Shown here: positions 57,691 through 63,740 of the stretch, one piece after another
How the letters are laid out: every line of letters begins with the position of its first letter
Numbering within the stretch: the first letter of the stretch is position 1
Source: Sphingomonas horti
GTDB taxonomy: Bacteria > Pseudomonadota > Alphaproteobacteria > Sphingomonadales > Sphingomonadaceae
Length of the DNA stretch: 64,000 bases
Reading direction: 5' to 3'
Assembly (NCBI RefSeq): GCF_009753715.1
Contig: NZ_WQMS01000001.1
Location: forward strand, 124,001 to 188,000
Notes under the pieces: generated by a model
Seen by the model: the letters and a program-made list of their open reading frames with translations, nothing else
Database searches by the model: none
What the model was told of the DNA's origin: nothing
Translations under genes and position numbers: made by a program

Positions 57691-57713
57691 AAAGCGGGGG
57701 CCGTAGCCCCCGC
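57690..57713 (-). terminator. Rho-independent terminator of the tracrRNA
   Basis: In the RNA sense, an 8-bp GC stem (GCGGGGGC and GCCCCCGC, 57694-57713) with a 4-base loop is followed by TTTT (57690-57693). On the plus strand no T-run follows the hairpin, so the terminator serves minus-strand transcription, which fixes the tracrRNA direction. Confidence 0.92.
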
Positions 57714-57766
57714 CTGATTTGGTGCAGTTCAGACTGCTTGTTAACAGCCGGCCTGCGATTTCTGAG
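57690..57766 (-). ncRNA. tracrRNA: tracrRNA of the type II-C CRISPR system
   Basis: A predicted RNA of about 77 nt on the minus strand. Its 5' part (57750-57766) is an exact 17-nt copy of plus-strand repeat bases 11-27 (CTCAGAAATCGCAGGCC), so it pairs with minus-strand crRNA. The next bases (57740-57749, GGCTGTTAAC in RNA sense) pair with crRNA repeat bases 1-9 through four G.U wobbles and one bulged U, making the duplex continuous over repeat bases 1-26. A perfect nexus hairpin follows (GCAGT-CTGA-ACTGC, 57724-57737), then the terminator. A promoter lies at the right distance upstream. The 5' end is predicted, not measured. Confidence 0.9.
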
Positions 57767-57772
57767 GCGCAC

Positions 57773-57801
57773 AGGTTCGTTCGGCCGGCCGCGATTGTCA
57801 A
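57773..57801 (-). promoter_or_regulatory. tracrRNA promoter
   Basis: A consensus -35 TTGACA (57796-57801, minus strand), a 17-base spacer and a weak -10 GAACCT (57773-57778) that keeps the key A2 and T6. Initiation about 7 bases downstream would fall near 57766, exactly where the anti-repeat core begins. Confidence 0.7.
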
Positions 57802-57895
57802 TACGCCGTGCGTTCACACCAACGCGCCCACGCGATTTGCCTCGCGTGCGGTTTGGGGCTAATTGCCCTGCCTTTTCGGCACCGAAACGAAAGCA

Positions 57896-58291
57896 ATGCT
57901 TACCCTTCGCCCAACCCGACGCAAGCTGCTCGGCCTGCTTGGCGCAGCGCCGATCGCGGCGACGGCCAAGCCGGCCCGGGCCGCGCGGCCACCGGTGCTG
58001 CTGCTCAAGACGCGCGTGAATGGCGAATGCTATTACGACGCGGCGCTGGCTATCGGCGGCTTGGCAGTGGGCGATCCCGTCCAGCTTCGGCGCGAGCCGA
58101 CCAATCGCTATGACAGCCGTGCAATCGAGGTGCTCGACCGAAAAGGTCGTAAGCTCGGCTACATTGCGCGCGTCGACAACTCCGCGGCTGCGCGTCTGAT
58201 CGACGCTGGCGAGGCACTCCGCGCGACCGTCGCTCGGCTGGACAAGCCGTCGCTCGATATCCGTATCGACGTGGAATGGCTGCCGGGCTGA
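57896..58291 (+). CDS. HIRAN-domain protein with twin-arginine leader, upstream of cas9
   Basis: A 131-residue protein. Residues 7-30 form a Tat-like leader (PTRRKLLGLLGAAPIAATAK). Residues about 37-127 form a HIRAN domain, with the core RREPTNRYDSRAIEVL at 65-80 and LGYIARVDNSAAARL at 87-101. HIRAN domains of HLTF/Rad5 bind 3' ends of single-stranded DNA; stand-alone bacterial versions are uncharacterised. The gene lies between the divergent tracrRNA promoter and cas9, is co-oriented with the cas genes and ends 112 bases before cas9. I use the ATG at 57896; a TTG at 57863 would add 11 residues. Export of a DNA-binding domain is odd. Confidence 0.8.
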   Translation: MLTLRPTRRKLLGLLGAAPIAATAKPARAARPPVLLLKTRVNGECYYDAALAIGGLAVGDPVQLRREPTNRYDSRAIEVLDRKGRKLGYIARVDNSAAARLIDAGEALRATVARLDKPSLDIRIDVEWLPG

Positions 58292-58403: not shown

Positions 58404-61400
58404 ATGAGGAGGCTTGGACTCGATATCGGCACCAACAGCATCGGCTGGTGCCTGATCGAAGACGACGCGCGGATCGTCGACATCGGCGTCCGCATCTTCA
58501 GCGACGGGCGCGATCCGAAGTCCGGCGCTTCGCTCGCGGTCGACCGTCGGGCGGCGCGAGCCATGCGGCGGCGGCGGGATCGGTATCTCGGGCGGCGCGC
58601 GGCCTTCCTGAAGGCACTGAAGCGCCACGGCCTGATGCCGGCGGACGAGAGCGCGGCGAAGTTGCTCGCCGATCGCGACCCCTATGAGCTCCGCGCCCGC
58701 GCGCTCTACGAGCGGCTGGAGCCGTACGAGATCGGGCGCGCGCTGTTTCACCTGAACCAGCGCCGCGGGTTCAAATCGAACCGCAAAGCGGAGCGCAAGA
58801 CCAAGGATGCCGAGGACGGCAAGATCGCCAGCGGAGCGAAGGCGCTCGACCAGGCCATGGCCGAAGAGGGCGCCGAAACGCTGGGCCAGTTTCTCGCCGG
58901 CCGCGACACCAAGCGTGTTCGCATGGGCAGCGATGCGCAGGGCTATGATTTCTATCCGCAGCGCCGGCATGTCGGATATGAGTTCGAGACAATCTGGGAG
59001 CGTCAGAAGCCGCACCACCCGGCCCTGCTCACCGACGAAGCGCACAAGCAACTCCACGACACCCTGTTCTTCCAGCGACCGCTGAAGGAACAGGAAGTCG
59101 GCGTCTGCACCTTCGTGCACAACGAACGCCGGCTACCGAAGGCACATCCGCTGTTCCAGGAACGCCGCCTCTACGAAGAGGTCAACCAGCTGGAGATCAC
59201 CACGCCCGGTGCGCCCAATCGCAAGCTGAGGATGGGCGAACGCGACGCGCTGATCCTCGAACTGCGCAGCCGCAGGGAACGGAGCTTCGATGCGCTTGCC
59301 AAGCGGCTGAAGCTGGAGCCGGGGCAGAGCTTCAACAAGGCGAGCGAGAGCCGAACCGATCTGAAGGGCGATGAAGTCTATGCCGTGATGGCGGACAAGA
59401 AGCGCTTCGGCGGTCGCTGGCCGCACCTCGACCGCGACCGACAATGGTCGATCATCGAGCGGATCATCGACGAGGAAGACCCGGACAAGCTCCACGCTTT
59501 CCTGACCGGCGAATGCGGACTGACGCACGACCAAGCCGTCGCAACTGCCAGGGCGCCGCTACCGGAGCTTTACGGGCGGCTCGGCCCAACCGCCACCGCA
59601 CGGATTCTGGATGAGCTGAAGAAAGGCGTCGTCACCTATGACGAGGCGGTGAAGCGGGCCGGATGGCATCATTCCGACGATCGCACCGGCGAAATCCTGC
59701 CCCAGCTCCCCTATTATGGCGAGCTGCTGACCCGCGAGATTCCGCCCGGCACGCAGGACCCGAACGACCCGCCCGAACAGCGCTGGGGCAAGATCACCAA
59801 CCCCACCGTCCATATCGGCCTCCGCCAGCTCGAAAAGCTGGTGAACGCGATCATCAAGGTCTACGGCCGCCCGGACCAGATCGTTGTCGAACTCGCCCGC
59901 GAACTGAAGCTGAACGAGAAGGACAAGGAAGAGCATAACCGCCGCATCCGCCGAGACACCGCGGCGGCGCAGCTCCGCTCCTCCAAGCTGCAGAGCGAAG
60001 GCATCCCTGACACGGGCGCCAACCGCATGCTGCTGCGCATGTGGGAAGAGCTGAACCCGAACGAAGTGCTCGACCGCCGCTGCCCCTATTGCGGCGAGCA
60101 GGTAGGCATGCGGATGCTGTTCACCGGCGAGGCGGATATCGACCACATCATTCCCTATTCCCGCTCGCTCGACGACAGCACCGGCAACAAGGTGGTCGCG
60201 CATCGCAACTGCAACCGCGTCAAGGGCAACCGTACGCCTTACGAGAAATGGGGCCACGATCCCGGCCGATGGGAGATCATCTCCACTCAGGTCGCGCGGC
60301 TGCACAAATCGAAGCAATGGCGCTTCGGGCCGGACGCAATGGCGCGGGTGGAAAAGGATGGCGGCTTCATCGCCCGCCAGCTCACCGACACGCAATATCT
60401 GTCGCGACTGGCTGGGCGTTATCTGTCCAGCCTCTATCCGACCAAGGACGACGGCAGCGTCTATGTGATCCCCGGCCGGATGACGGCCATGCTGCGCCGC
60501 CTTTGGGGACTCAACAGCCTGTTGCCGGACCATAACTTCGTCGAGAACCAGCATAGCAACGCGCCGAAGAATCGGCTCGATCATCGCCACCATGCGATCG
60601 ACGCAGCAGTGGTGGCAGTCACGACGCGCGGCCTGCTGCAGGAAATCGCCCACGTGGCCGGCAGGGCCGAGGACAAGGACCTCGATCGCCTGTTCGAGGA
60701 CTTGCCGCAGCCGTGGGACGGCTTCCGCGAAGAACTTGGGGAACGCCTCGCCCGCGTGACCGTCAGCCATAAGCCCGATCACGGACGCAAAGGCGTGCCG
60801 CCCAAGGATCGCGATGTGACGGCCGGCCGGCTCCACAACGACACCGCCTATGGCCTGACTGGCGATGTTGCGACCGACGGGAGGACACCGATCGTCGTGC
60901 ACCGCGTCCCATTGATGAGCATCAAGCCCGCCGATATCTCCGATCCGGATCGGATTCCCGATCCCACCCTTCGCGCAGCACTGCATCGGGCCACCGATGG
61001 TCTGAGCGGCAAGGCCTATGAAGCGGCCCTCGCTGGCTTCGCGAAAACCCATCCGCAATTCGCCGGCATCCGTCGCGTTCGCGTTCGCGAACCTCTTAAC
61101 GTGATCCGGATCCACGATAGGAACGGCAAGCCGTACAAGGCCTACAAAGGCGATGCGAATGCCCGCTACGATGTCTGGCAAATGCCGAACGGCAAGTGGA
61201 TGCACGACATCGTCTCGATGTTCGACGCGCATCAGCGGCCGCATGAGCTCACGGAAGAGGAGAAGGCGGCAGGCAAAAAGGTGCAACCGAAGCGACCGCA
61301 TCCTGCCGCCAAGAAGGTCTTGAGCCTTCGTCAGAACGATATGCTTGCGATCGAGCGTAACGGCGGCGCGCCGGAGATCGTGCGCGTGGTCAAGTTCTCG

Positions 61401-61586
61401 ACCATCGGAGCGATCGCACTGGCCCTCCACCAGGAAGGCGGCGCGCTCAAGGCCCGCGATGCCGCCCCATCAGAGGTGGACCCGTTCAAATATATCTATT
61501 CCTCTGGCGGCGGACTGAAGAACCTGAAAGCCCGTCAAGTGCGGATTGATCCATTAGGGAGGATTTTCGATCCCGGCCCGCGCTGA
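58404..61586 (+). CDS. cas9: Cas9 endonuclease, type II-C
   Basis: A 1060-residue RNA-guided nuclease, a size typical of subtype II-C. RuvC-I has Asp7 (LGLDIGTNSIGW). An Arg-rich bridge helix follows (RRAARAMRRRRDRYLGRRA, about 48-66), then the recognition lobe to about 460. RuvC-II has Glu496 (IVVELARE). The HNH domain has Asp580-His581 (DIDHIIPYS) and Asn604, preceded by C560-x2-C563 (CPYCG), a possible zinc knuckle. RuvC-III has His730 and Asp733 (HHAIDAAVVA), and the C-terminal PAM-interacting region completes the protein. All catalytic residues are intact. The start has GAGGGGG upstream. cas1 follows after 41 bases, and there is no csn2 or cas4. Confidence 0.98.
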   Translation: MRRLGLDIGTNSIGWCLIEDDARIVDIGVRIFSDGRDPKSGASLAVDRRAARAMRRRRDRYLGRRAAFLKALKRHGLMPADESAAKLLADRDPYELRARALYERLEPYEIGRALFHLNQRRGFKSNRKAERKTKDAEDGKIASGAKALDQAMAEEGAETLGQFLAGRDTKRVRMGSDAQGYDFYPQRRHVGYEFETIWERQKPHHPALLTDEAHKQLHDTLFFQRPLKEQEVGVCTFVHNERRLPKAHPLFQERRLYEEVNQLEITTPGAPNRKLRMGERDALILELRSRRERSFDALAKRLKLEPGQSFNKASESRTDLKGDEVYAVMADKKRFGGRWPHLDRDRQWSIIERIIDEEDPDKLHAFLTGECGLTHDQAVATARAPLPELYGRLGPTATARILDELKKGVVTYDEAVKRAGWHHSDDRTGEILPQLPYYGELLTREIPPGTQDPNDPPEQRWGKITNPTVHIGLRQLEKLVNAIIKVYGRPDQIVVELARELKLNEKDKEEHNRRIRRDTAAAQLRSSKLQSEGIPDTGANRMLLRMWEELNPNEVLDRRCPYCGEQVGMRMLFTGEADIDHIIPYSRSLDDSTGNKVVAHRNCNRVKGNRTPYEKWGHDPGRWEIISTQVARLHKSKQWRFGPDAMARVEKDGGFIARQLTDTQYLSRLAGRYLSSLYPTKDDGSVYVIPGRMTAMLRRLWGLNSLLPDHNFVENQHSNAPKNRLDHRHHAIDAAVVAVTTRGLLQEIAHVAGRAEDKDLDRLFEDLPQPWDGFREELGERLARVTVSHKPDHGRKGVPPKDRDVTAGRLHNDTAYGLTGDVATDGRTPIVVHRVPLMSIKPADISDPDRIPDPTLRAALHRATDGLSGKAYEAALAGFAKTHPQFAGIRRVRVREPLNVIRIHDRNGKPYKAYKGDANARYDVWQMPNGKWMHDIVSMFDAHQRPHELTEEEKAAGKKVQPKRPHPAAKKVLSLRQNDMLAIERNGGAPEIVRVVKFSTIGAIALALHQEGGALKARDAAPSEVDPFKYIYSSGGGLKNLKARQVRIDPLGRIFDPGPR

Positions 61587-61627: not shown

Positions 61628-62563
61628 ATGGACCGCATCGTCGACATCGCCACCGACGGCCGGCATCTGGCGCTGTTTCGCGGCTTCATGGTTGTGAAGC
61701 AGGACGGCGAGGAAATCGGCCGCGTCGCGCTCGACGATATCCACGCGCTGATCGTCCACGCGCACGGCACCACCTGGAGCGCGAACCTGGTCGCCGCCCT
61801 CGCCGAGCGCGGCGCGCCAATCGTCTTTTGCGGCACGAACCACAGCCCGGTCGCGGTTACGCTGCCGCTGGAAGGGCACCATGCGCAGGGCGCCCGAATC
61901 CAGGCGCAGTGGAACGCCTCGCGCCCGCTCGCCAAGCAGTTGTGGCGGCTGGTGGTGGTCGCGAAGGTCCGAACCCAGGCGTCGCTGCTGGAAGCGCGCG
62001 GCGTGCGCGAGGCCGAGGCGCTGCAATTCCTCGCCCGCCGCGTCCGCTCCGGCGACCCGGACAATATCGAGGCGCAGGCCGCGAAGCGCTATTGGCCGCT
62101 GCTGATGGGGCGGGATTTCCGGCGCGATCGCGACCAGGACGGCGCGAACGCCCTGCTGAACTATGGCTATGCCGTCATGCGCGCGTCCGTCGCTCGCGCC
62201 GTCGTCGCGGCCGGTCTGCACCCGACGATCGGCGTTCACCACGCCAATCGCGGCAACGCCTTCGCGCTCGCGGACGACCTGGTCGAGCCGTTTCGGCCGC
62301 TGGTCGACGCGCTGGTTTGCGGCATGGTGCAGGACGGCGTGACGGCCCTCGATCCCGCCGCCAAGCGCCGTTTCGCGCGCCTGATCGCTTTCGATCTGCG
62401 CGTCGAGGGCGAGGCCTCGCCCGTCTCCATGGCGGCGGCACGACTCGCCCAGTCGCTCGCCCGCAGCTTCGAAACCGGCGCGCCCGCGCTGGCACTGTTC
62501 GACCCGCCAAGCCCGATCGAATGGGGGAGCCTCCCGCGCTCGACCCTGGCCGAGGCCGCATGA
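61628..62563 (+). CDS. cas1: Cas1 integrase, type II
   Basis: A 311-residue metal-dependent integrase that, with Cas2, inserts new spacers at the leader-proximal repeat. The metal ligands are Glu148 (DPDNIEAQAAKRYWP), His204/His205 (IGVHHANRGN) and Asp217/Glu220 (ALADDLVEPFRP). The N-terminal beta-sandwich contains the DDIHALIVHAHGTTWS and GAPIVFCG elements. The ATG has GGGGGAG upstream. The gene ends in an ATGA overlap with cas2, so the two are translated together. All active-site positions are intact, so adaptation should be functional. Confidence 0.97.
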   Translation: MDRIVDIATDGRHLALFRGFMVVKQDGEEIGRVALDDIHALIVHAHGTTWSANLVAALAERGAPIVFCGTNHSPVAVTLPLEGHHAQGARIQAQWNASRPLAKQLWRLVVVAKVRTQASLLEARGVREAEALQFLARRVRSGDPDNIEAQAAKRYWPLLMGRDFRRDRDQDGANALLNYGYAVMRASVARAVVAAGLHPTIGVHHANRGNAFALADDLVEPFRPLVDALVCGMVQDGVTALDPAAKRRFARLIAFDLRVEGEASPVSMAAARLAQSLARSFETGAPALALFDPPSPIEWGSLPRSTLAEAA

Positions 62564-62907
62564 ATGCCCGGCCGGCCAGCTATCTCAGCGGGTACCGGCT
62601 GATGTGGATTTTCGTGATGTTCGACCTGCCGGTCGGCACCAAGAAACAGATGCGGGAAGCCACCAAATTCCGTGAGTTCCTGCTCGACGAGGGCTTCGAA
62701 ATGAGCCAGTTTTCCGTCTATGCCCGCTTCTGCAACGGCCAGGACAGCTTTCAGGCGCACCTCAAGCGCATCGAACGCAACCTACCCGAAAAGGGCGACA
62801 TCCACGTCCTCACCTTCACCGACCGGCAGTATGAGAATATCGTCCGATTCTCGAGCCAGCGCCGCAGGAAGCAGCGCAAAAACCCTGATCAGCTGGCGAT
62901 GTTTTGA
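62560..62907 (+). CDS. cas2: Cas2, type II
   Basis: A 115-residue ferredoxin-fold protein that bridges two Cas1 dimers in the spacer-acquisition complex. The first beta strand and conserved Asp are in MWIFVMFDLPVGTKKQMREA. The middle has FEMSQFSVYARFC and the later strand GDIHVLTFTDRQYENI; the tail is basic. The ATG at 62560 overlaps the cas1 stop by 4 bases; an internal Met15 is a less likely start. A longer ORF from 61828 that ends here is mostly out-of-frame cas1 sequence. The CRISPR leader begins directly after the stop. Confidence 0.97.
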   Translation: MNARPASYLSGYRLMWIFVMFDLPVGTKKQMREATKFREFLLDEGFEMSQFSVYARFCNGQDSFQAHLKRIERNLPEKGDIHVLTFTDRQYENIVRFSSQRRRKQRKNPDQLAMF

Positions 62908-62979: not shown

Positions 62980-63740
62980 GGCCTAGCAGCTCAGAAATCG
63001 CAGGCCAACCGCAACCGTAGGTGGCCGTTCCCATCGCTCCCCAAAGGCCTAGCAGCTCAGAAATCGCAGGCCAACCGCAACGCAATCGAGGTCGCCCGCG
63101 TCGAGGTCGAGGGCCTAGCAGCTCAGAAATCGCAGGCCAACCGCAACGGCTCGAGCGATGACGAGAAATCGCCATCGGGCCTAGCAGCTCAGAAATCGCA
63201 GGCCAACCGCAACTGCCGCAGCCGTCGTGGCTGCGCTGGCTCTGGCCTAGCAGCTCAGAAATCGCAGGCCAACCGCAACCCGGCGGAGAAGAAGACGCGC
63301 CCTCGCAGGGGCCTAGCAGCTCAGAAATCGCAGGCCAACCGCAACACAGGCATCTGGCACGCGAAGCGCGGGAAGGGCCTAGCAGCTCAGAAATCGCAGG
63401 CCAACCGCAACCGCCCGCCGCACTGGCAATCGCCGACCTGCGGCCTAGCAGCTCAGAAATCGCAGGCCAACCGCAACTCGCCGTGGGTATAGTCGTACAC
63501 CTCGATCGGCCTAGCAGCTCAGAAATCGCAGGCCAACCGCAACGATTGGCTGGTTGACGCCTTCCGCGACGACGGCCTAGCAGCTCAGAAATCGCAGGCC
63601 AACCGCAACCGATACGCTCGGCAGCATGCCCGACCCGATGGCCTAGCAGCTCAGAAATCGCAGGCCAACCGCAACGTGCGCGTCTCACGGCTCTGGTCCA
63701 CATAGGCCTAGCAGCCCAGAAATCGCAGGCCAACCGCAAC
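62980..63740 (-). CRISPR. CRISPR array, 12 repeats and 11 spacers
   Basis: Repeats of 36 bases start at 62980, 63046, 63112, 63178, 63244, 63310, 63376, 63442, 63508, 63574, 63640 and 63705. The first eleven are identical on reading. The last has a T-to-C change at its twelfth plus-strand base, which marks the leader-distal end. Spacers are 30 bases each except the final one (63676-63704, 29 bases). In crRNA sense (minus strand) the repeat begins GTTGCGGTTGGCC, the GTTG start typical of type II repeats. Complementarity with the tracrRNA requires minus-strand transcription, opposite to cas9-cas1-cas2. All spacers differ, so the array has been built by repeated acquisition. Confidence 0.98.

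Follow-up and report, generated by a model that had tools for sequence, protein, structure and literature searches.

A leader-bearing HIRAN gene ahead of cas9 resembles an optional, exported, defense-linked gene that precedes cas operons of several types

The eukaryotic enzyme HLTF uses its HIRAN domain and a freed 3′ end in taking Cas9 off cut DNA. According to the same source, removal of Cas9 after cutting requires both the HIRAN domain and the motor, and the N90A-N91A double substitution disrupts the function of the HLTF HIRAN domain (PMC11237066). In bacteria, HIRAN domains are already known from candidate defense genes of the HipN/HipL kind (excerpts of PMC8262856) and from the vicinity of defense genes in diDNase clusters (excerpts of PMC11706625), and a 2024 paper termed prokaryotic HIRAN domains uncharacterized (PMC11090510). 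None of the open-literature matches listed, a set that excludes subscription papers and supplements, reported a bacterial HIRAN gene in or leading a cas operon.

We analyzed a stretch of 64,000 nucleotides from Sphingomonas horti (hereafter the window) that carries an intact gene for a stand-alone HIRAN protein of 131 amino acids at 57896-58291 on the plus strand. The assignment draws on the open reading frame, its match to Pfam PF08797 (E=6.5e-16; 58.4 bits against a curated cut-off of 24.7), dN/dS, and predicted structure. An alternative TTG start at 57863 would extend the protein to 142 amino acids. Comparison with the copy in a strain of the same genus (G149) gave a dN of 0.371, a dS of 1.078, and a dN/dS of 0.34, and the intact HIRAN pairs compared are, judging from such rates, under purifying selection. 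The AlphaFold model (pLDDT 78.4, with the leader region below 55) matched PDB 3k2y with Z 15.4 and 34% identity over 100 residues, the HLTF HIRAN domain with Z ~10 (rmsd 2.1-2.5 over 93-99 residues), and Rad5 with Z 9.8. The window protein thus has a HIRAN sequence and a predicted HIRAN fold. Structure matches below Z 8, namely HamB of Hachiman (7.3), Cas12f (~6), and SmpB (~5), were not taken as kinship. Alignment to the HLTF chains placed N70-x-Y72-D73 (58103-58114, plus strand) opposite N91, Y93, and D94 of HLTF, numbered from the N90/N91 given in the excerpts of PMC11237066. N70 was kept in all 11 aligned proteins, the window protein among them, and Y72 and D73 in 10 of 11 each.

The protein starts with a twin-arginine-type leader (57896-57982, plus strand, boundary approximate; MLTLRPTRRKLLGLLGAAPIAATAKPARA) composed of RRKLL, a hydrophobic stretch, and an AxA-type end. 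The NCBIfam Tat model scored this leader at 12.9 bits, below its cut-off of 16.7, so that, judged from the window sequence by itself, a Tat assignment is no more than plausible. RR or KR leaders recur in relatives only ~30% identical. In an alignment of 11 rows, picked partly for their leaders, RR was present in nine and KR in two. Full-length relatives outside the window's class had leaders such as MNRRGFLQALFQGVAYLPLLPVVALA or MNLSKRRFLKAGAGLAALLF, and one protein found after the alignment was made (L189) had a leader with RRRFL. An RR/KR leader is common to the window protein and its distant relatives, as far as their sequences tell. Relatives in one order (that of G862) mostly had Sec-type leaders. 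Leader types were assigned by eye; scripted counts were dropped because the script read codons 5′ of the likely start (L134, L192, L195, and L203) and missed L131.

As the earlier note had described, the HIRAN gene lies between the promoter region of a divergent tracrRNA and cas9, on the same strand as cas9 and with no gene in the 112-nt gap between the two. The tracrRNA and its terminator (57692-57795, minus strand, 5′ end approximate) were recognized by an anti-repeat core, a hairpin, and the predicted fold; the region had no Rfam match. The anti-repeat core (GGCCTGCGATTTCTGAG, 57750-57766) runs in the opposite sense to 11 exact copies in the array, and a terminator-like hairpin is found at 57715-57692 (minus strand). 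One such hairpin was observed in 1.2 kb against a shuffle mean of 1.1, so it is the position of the hairpin that counts. The minus strand from 57795 to 57690 folded better than shuffled sequences (z −4.8). The inverted anti-repeat and the minus-strand hairpin together indicate that transcription of the tracrRNA runs leftwards and so points away from the HIRAN gene. By eye, TTGACA at 57796-57801 (minus strand) is a possible −35 element of the tracrRNA promoter, and another strain of the genus (G200) has TTGACT at a similar place; a promoter scan detected none for the tracrRNA. Downstream on the plus strand are cas9 (58404-61586; NCBIfam TIGR01865, 600 bits), cas1 (61628-62563; TIGR03639, 249 bits), both of type II, and cas2 (62557-62907, start approximate; TIGR01573, 73 bits), followed by a CRISPR array of 12 repeats of 36 nt with a period of ~66 (62980-63740, minus strand as implied by the anti-repeat). 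With cas9, cas1, cas2, tracrRNA, and array present, and neither csn2 nor cas4 among the ORFs between cas9 and the array, the locus is of type II-C. There was no WYL gene among the ORFs identified at this locus. Elsewhere in the same genome, a Cas9 N-terminal-like fragment with one internal stop (G000:C23:186579-187028, minus strand; L065/L070) shares 34% identity with the Cas9 of the window across 129 residues.

The most serious rival to a functional tie is that the protein is an exported envelope HIRAN of general function that became an unrelated neighbor by chance insertion between tracrRNA and cas9, with linkage elsewhere reflecting the regulator-HIRAN-cas cassette of a single family plus hitch-hiking in defense islands. 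We regard this as quite possible, though short of an even chance. Within the window's family alone, the placement looks like that of a chance neighbor. Strain G200 shares the tonB-like gene, p57322, tracrRNA, cas9 (86% identical), cas1, and cas2 and has no HIRAN gene, and its anti-repeat core lies 84 nt from cas9 versus 637 nt in the window. Compared with this HIRAN-less congener, the window therefore has an extra ~550 nt separating tracrRNA from cas9. A scan of genome contigs with two short patterns found two relatives, the closest found, at 59% and 57% identity, and their neighbors were named by eye from the translations: in G149 the gene follows rpoD (L072), and its counterpart in SKS1.bin48 is flanked by nusG and rplK (L073). 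The cas9 locus of G149 is on a different contig from its HIRAN gene, and no HIRAN was seen in its slot between tracrRNA and cas9. That slot (L062, G149:C103) holds, by eye, a stray repeat-like stretch and, after it, a possible spacer sequence, perhaps a guide with an autoregulatory role or a remnant of an array. Among 249 genomes of the family, any HIRAN was present in 36 and cas9 over cut-off in 23, and HIRAN adjoined cas9 only in the window's own genome (1/23). HIRAN occurred in 5 of the 23 genomes with cas9 and in 31 of the 226 others (p=0.35). With a looser cas9 list, longer by seven genomes whose matches are weak or fragmentary, the figures were 8/30 versus 28/219 (p=0.05). The idea that HIRAN in general marks cas9 genomes in this family was rejected on these figures. 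Six genomes of the window's genus were covered, with HIRAN in three and cas9 in three.

Wider sampling points away from a chance neighbor. A profile of three proteins (the window protein and two relatives) matched in 31 of 398 genomes across the phylum; in one order, 32 of 100 genomes have a match. With the HIRAN part of the 11-protein alignment, 52 loci scored at least 80 bits; the window protein sits in this profile, and its own score is not independent. Two of the 52 (L222 and L224) are leaderless and without cas, and setting them aside left the 50 contexts of the exported clade, which include three leaderless fusions and four partial or broken copies. Among other HIRANs, L221 reached 77.6 bits, the viral L187 73.6, and the rest at most 64. 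Contexts were fetched for 36 of 37 places in the one order and for 19 of 32 from the phylum-wide search, where the 13 places without context are mostly longer, leaderless HIRANs. Genes for Cas proteins were sought with II-C, V-A, I-C, and I-F seeds only, so other cas types would be missed.

In nine of the 50 contexts the first cas gene came directly next on the same strand, and the relatives of the window protein stand in this position before operons of three types other than II-C. HIRAN is followed by cas9 of type II-C in the window, by cas12a-cas4-cas1-cas2 of type V-A in L136 (Cas12a, 1314 bits), and by cas3-cas5-cas8c of type I-C in L135. It leads into type I-C cas3 at a contig end in L139 and into cas3 with further type I-C-like genes in L219, into cas1 and cas3 of type I-F in L134, L140, and L223, and into type I-F cas1 at a contig end in L132; the assignments of L139, L219, L223, and L132 rest partly on likeness to typed proteins. 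At a tenth locus (L190), a type I-C operon is ~1.26 kb away, with two small genes intervening. Three members follow the type I restriction genes hsdR-hsdM-hsdS, one typed by PADLOC (L131, which also adjoins GajA/GajB of Gabija) and two by likeness to it (L130 and L138). Five members (L133, L189, L142, L214, and L218) had a WYL gene near and no cas found. In the remaining 32 contexts, none of the cas, hsd, or WYL neighbors was seen.

Most relatives with Sec-type leaders sit among non-defense genes, in contexts that recur within one order. Several follow a DinG-like helicase gene (our label; Pfam Helicase_C_2) or share other recurring neighbors. In L188, L190, L196, L198, and L202, from several families of one order, a Sec-leader HIRAN comes directly after cluster c5 genes, and the c5 neighbor is DinG-like by Pfam in L190. 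The proteins of L142, L214, and L218 are ~690-710 amino acids long and end in a HIRAN-like domain, with a WYL regulator close by (by Pfam in L142 only). A plasmid or phage gene was considered and rejected: plasmid searches returned 4, 4, and 1 records and a phage search 30, none covering 80% of the query, and an IMG/VR scan returned two distant matches, leaderless by eye. On plasmid NZ_CP101830.1 of Pelagibacterium sp. H642, the gene for a manganese catalase is immediately followed by one for a HIRAN protein (L256).

One family, f188, shows the same front end before different cas operons. HIRAN matched in 11 of its 74 genomes, the same 11 as in G924's class (78 genomes). Seven of these carry a member of the exported clade; what matched in the remaining four was a leaderless or longer HIRAN or a fragment. 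Six of the seven members directly precede cas genes, of three types. For six members the contig extends upstream of the gene, and all six have a WYL gene in front, with a WYL-WCX-HTH make-up according to Pfam in L136 and L133. In L135 and L139 the stop codon of HIRAN overlaps the start of cas3, and in L134 that of cas1, the first cas gene in each case. Across 1,444 nt, the WYL-HIRAN segments of L133 and L135 have 93.9% identity, and the likeness ends 9 nt short of the end of HIRAN; L135 continues into a type I-C operon, and L133 has no cas. HIRANs L136 and L223 group as sisters (100/96), and their DNA is 87.7% identical along 195 nt that stop 6 nt short of where the L136 gene ends; one leads into cas12a and the other into cas1 of type I-F. 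The front end is thus retained where the operon behind it differs. PADLOC models of CRISPR-associated WYL proteins match the WYL proteins of L136 and L140. They also match the first ~320 positions of PADLOC PDLC01766 (named Cas3c, 1009 positions), which suggests that WYL-Cas3 fusions may exist. Two leaderless HIRANs of the family (L221 and L222) are, by eye, near UmuC- and LexA-like genes.

The gene is optional in this family, since cas1 over cut-off was found in 18 of 57 genomes without the gene (57 of 67 were searched); L244, L249, and L251 have WYL-cas1 without HIRAN. Presence of cas in 6 of 7 genomes with the gene versus 18 of 57 without (p=0.009) mixes two criteria: the seven were read from contexts, and the 57 were searched with a cas1 model. 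Possible remnants of HIRAN between WYL and cas1 in G829, G832, and G839 were rejected and not counted. A leader-like ORF in the G829 gap is convincing by eye, but neither the profile (E 0.076) nor a DNA comparison (31.0 bits versus 30.1 in shuffles) sets it apart from chance. In G862 (one contig) and G1151, cas-linked copies have leader and HIRAN part in different frames, and in G823 a copy beside RM genes has a leader that runs into a shortened domain. Sequencing errors are a possible cause of all three.

Control HIRANs outside the exported clade had cas within 1.5 kb at none of 36 loci. Linkage at 9 of 50 exported contexts versus 0 of 36 other HIRANs gave p=0.009, with flanks of up to 8 kb for the former and 1.5 kb for the latter. 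The fairer test counts the six cas-linked f188 loci once; 4/45 versus 0/36 is not significant (p=0.12). Parsimony required at least four changes of the cas label (five with L190), on a poorly resolved tree in which 28 of 59 inner branches are open and which omits some of the distant HIRANs. Compared with a random gene position, we estimate that the chance of such linkage is far smaller.

Weighing against a functional tie are the gene's frequent absence or breakage, the Sec-leader members in recurring non-defense contexts of one order, and the p of 0.12; the last two also count for the chance neighbor. Against the chance neighbor, HIRAN immediately precedes the leading cas gene at loci of four CRISPR types, in places with its stop overlapping the start of cas3 or cas1, which is a very small target. 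We tentatively favor, at close to an even chance, that the window protein is an exported, optional, defense-associated accessory, and from its sequence and that of its relatives the gene looks like one that is optional, exported, and defense-linked. The earlier note, which left open a type II-C accessory or an unrelated neighbor, is borne out in part: the exported subfamily precedes V-A, I-C, and I-F operons in other families, so that its role would not be tied to type II-C in particular. The expectation that would speak for mere coincidence, HIRAN being equally common in genomes without cas9, holds for HIRAN in general in the window's family, but the exported subfamily recurs before cas operons in other families.

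Another rival has the leader unused, or serving as a mere anchor, and HIRAN acting within the cytoplasm, either on spacer precursors or on 3′ ends that Cas nucleases have freed. The use of HIRAN and a freed 3′ end by HLTF on Cas9-cut DNA (excerpts of PMC11237066) lends it some appeal, but HLTF also needs its motor, which the window protein lacks. The recurrence of RR/KR leaders in distant relatives (in rows partly leader-picked) and in L189, and their replacement by mostly Sec-type leaders, judged by eye, in relatives of the G862 order, make it improbable. As the earlier note had remarked, the leader is at odds with a cytoplasmic role, and it makes direct work on breaks left by Cas9 in that compartment less likely. 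A periplasmic DNA-end binder that aids DNA uptake or retention in often-exchanged loci would suit the leader, the DNA-end-binding type of fold, and the differing cas operons behind WYL-HIRAN in near relatives, but we know of no link between this HIRAN subfamily and competence genes and consider it very improbable.

The window protein has no motor, and its leader argues for work outside the cytoplasm. The likeliest mechanism, itself rather doubtful, is a DNA-end step in the periplasm. The Tat pathway would export the HIRAN protein, which would bind 3′ ends of phage-injected or taken-up DNA; DNA so bound might be slowed or held at the envelope, with Cas proteins made at the same time doing their work inside. 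In relatives, the WYL regulator in front may switch the WYL-HIRAN pair together with cas. More broadly, and again with considerable doubt, several CRISPR-Cas types may have in common an envelope arm, a Tat-exported periplasmic 3′-end binder made with Cas proteins, often behind a WYL switch, that persists as a plug-in front end during cas exchange. Exported HIRANs before cas genes hint that some CRISPR systems have a part outside the inner membrane. If this is true, a leader-bearing HIRAN before operons of types II-C, V-A, I-C, and I-F would mean that one component of DNA-targeting immunity works outside the cytoplasm, where DNA arrives. The WYL-HIRAN-cas loci offer a simple testable set, with the same front end and different effectors.

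The candidate defense genes of the PADLOC PDC-M03B model, which we take from its match to be the HipN/HipL group, share a HIRAN domain with the window protein (best E 6.9e-13). The window protein differs from HipN in having a leader and no Hip kinase beside it, its neighbors being tracrRNA and cas9. Antitoxins of the HipN type are two-part proteins with an additional N-terminal portion ahead of HIRAN and a Hip kinase partner. A HipN-type antitoxin was rejected, since the match is confined to positions 134-216 of the 250 in the profile, the HIRAN part only, and the Hip kinase partner is missing. WYL regulators of CRISPR loci (PADLOC PDLC01457 and PDLC01652) have counterparts as partner genes in f188 and G862 and none among the ORFs identified at the window locus. 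The Lactobacillus plantarum protein lp_0118 (PDB 3k2y; ~109 amino acids; Z 15.4), deposited as "uncharacterized protein," is bacterial like the window protein, and its matched part, unlike the window protein, is without a leader. The HIRAN domains of HLTF (PDB 4xzg, 4s0n, 6kcs, 5bnh, and 4xzf) and Rad5 (6l8n) resemble the window protein in predicted fold and in the N-x-Y-D motif, whereas the window protein is bacterial, has a leader, and is without a motor or RING part.
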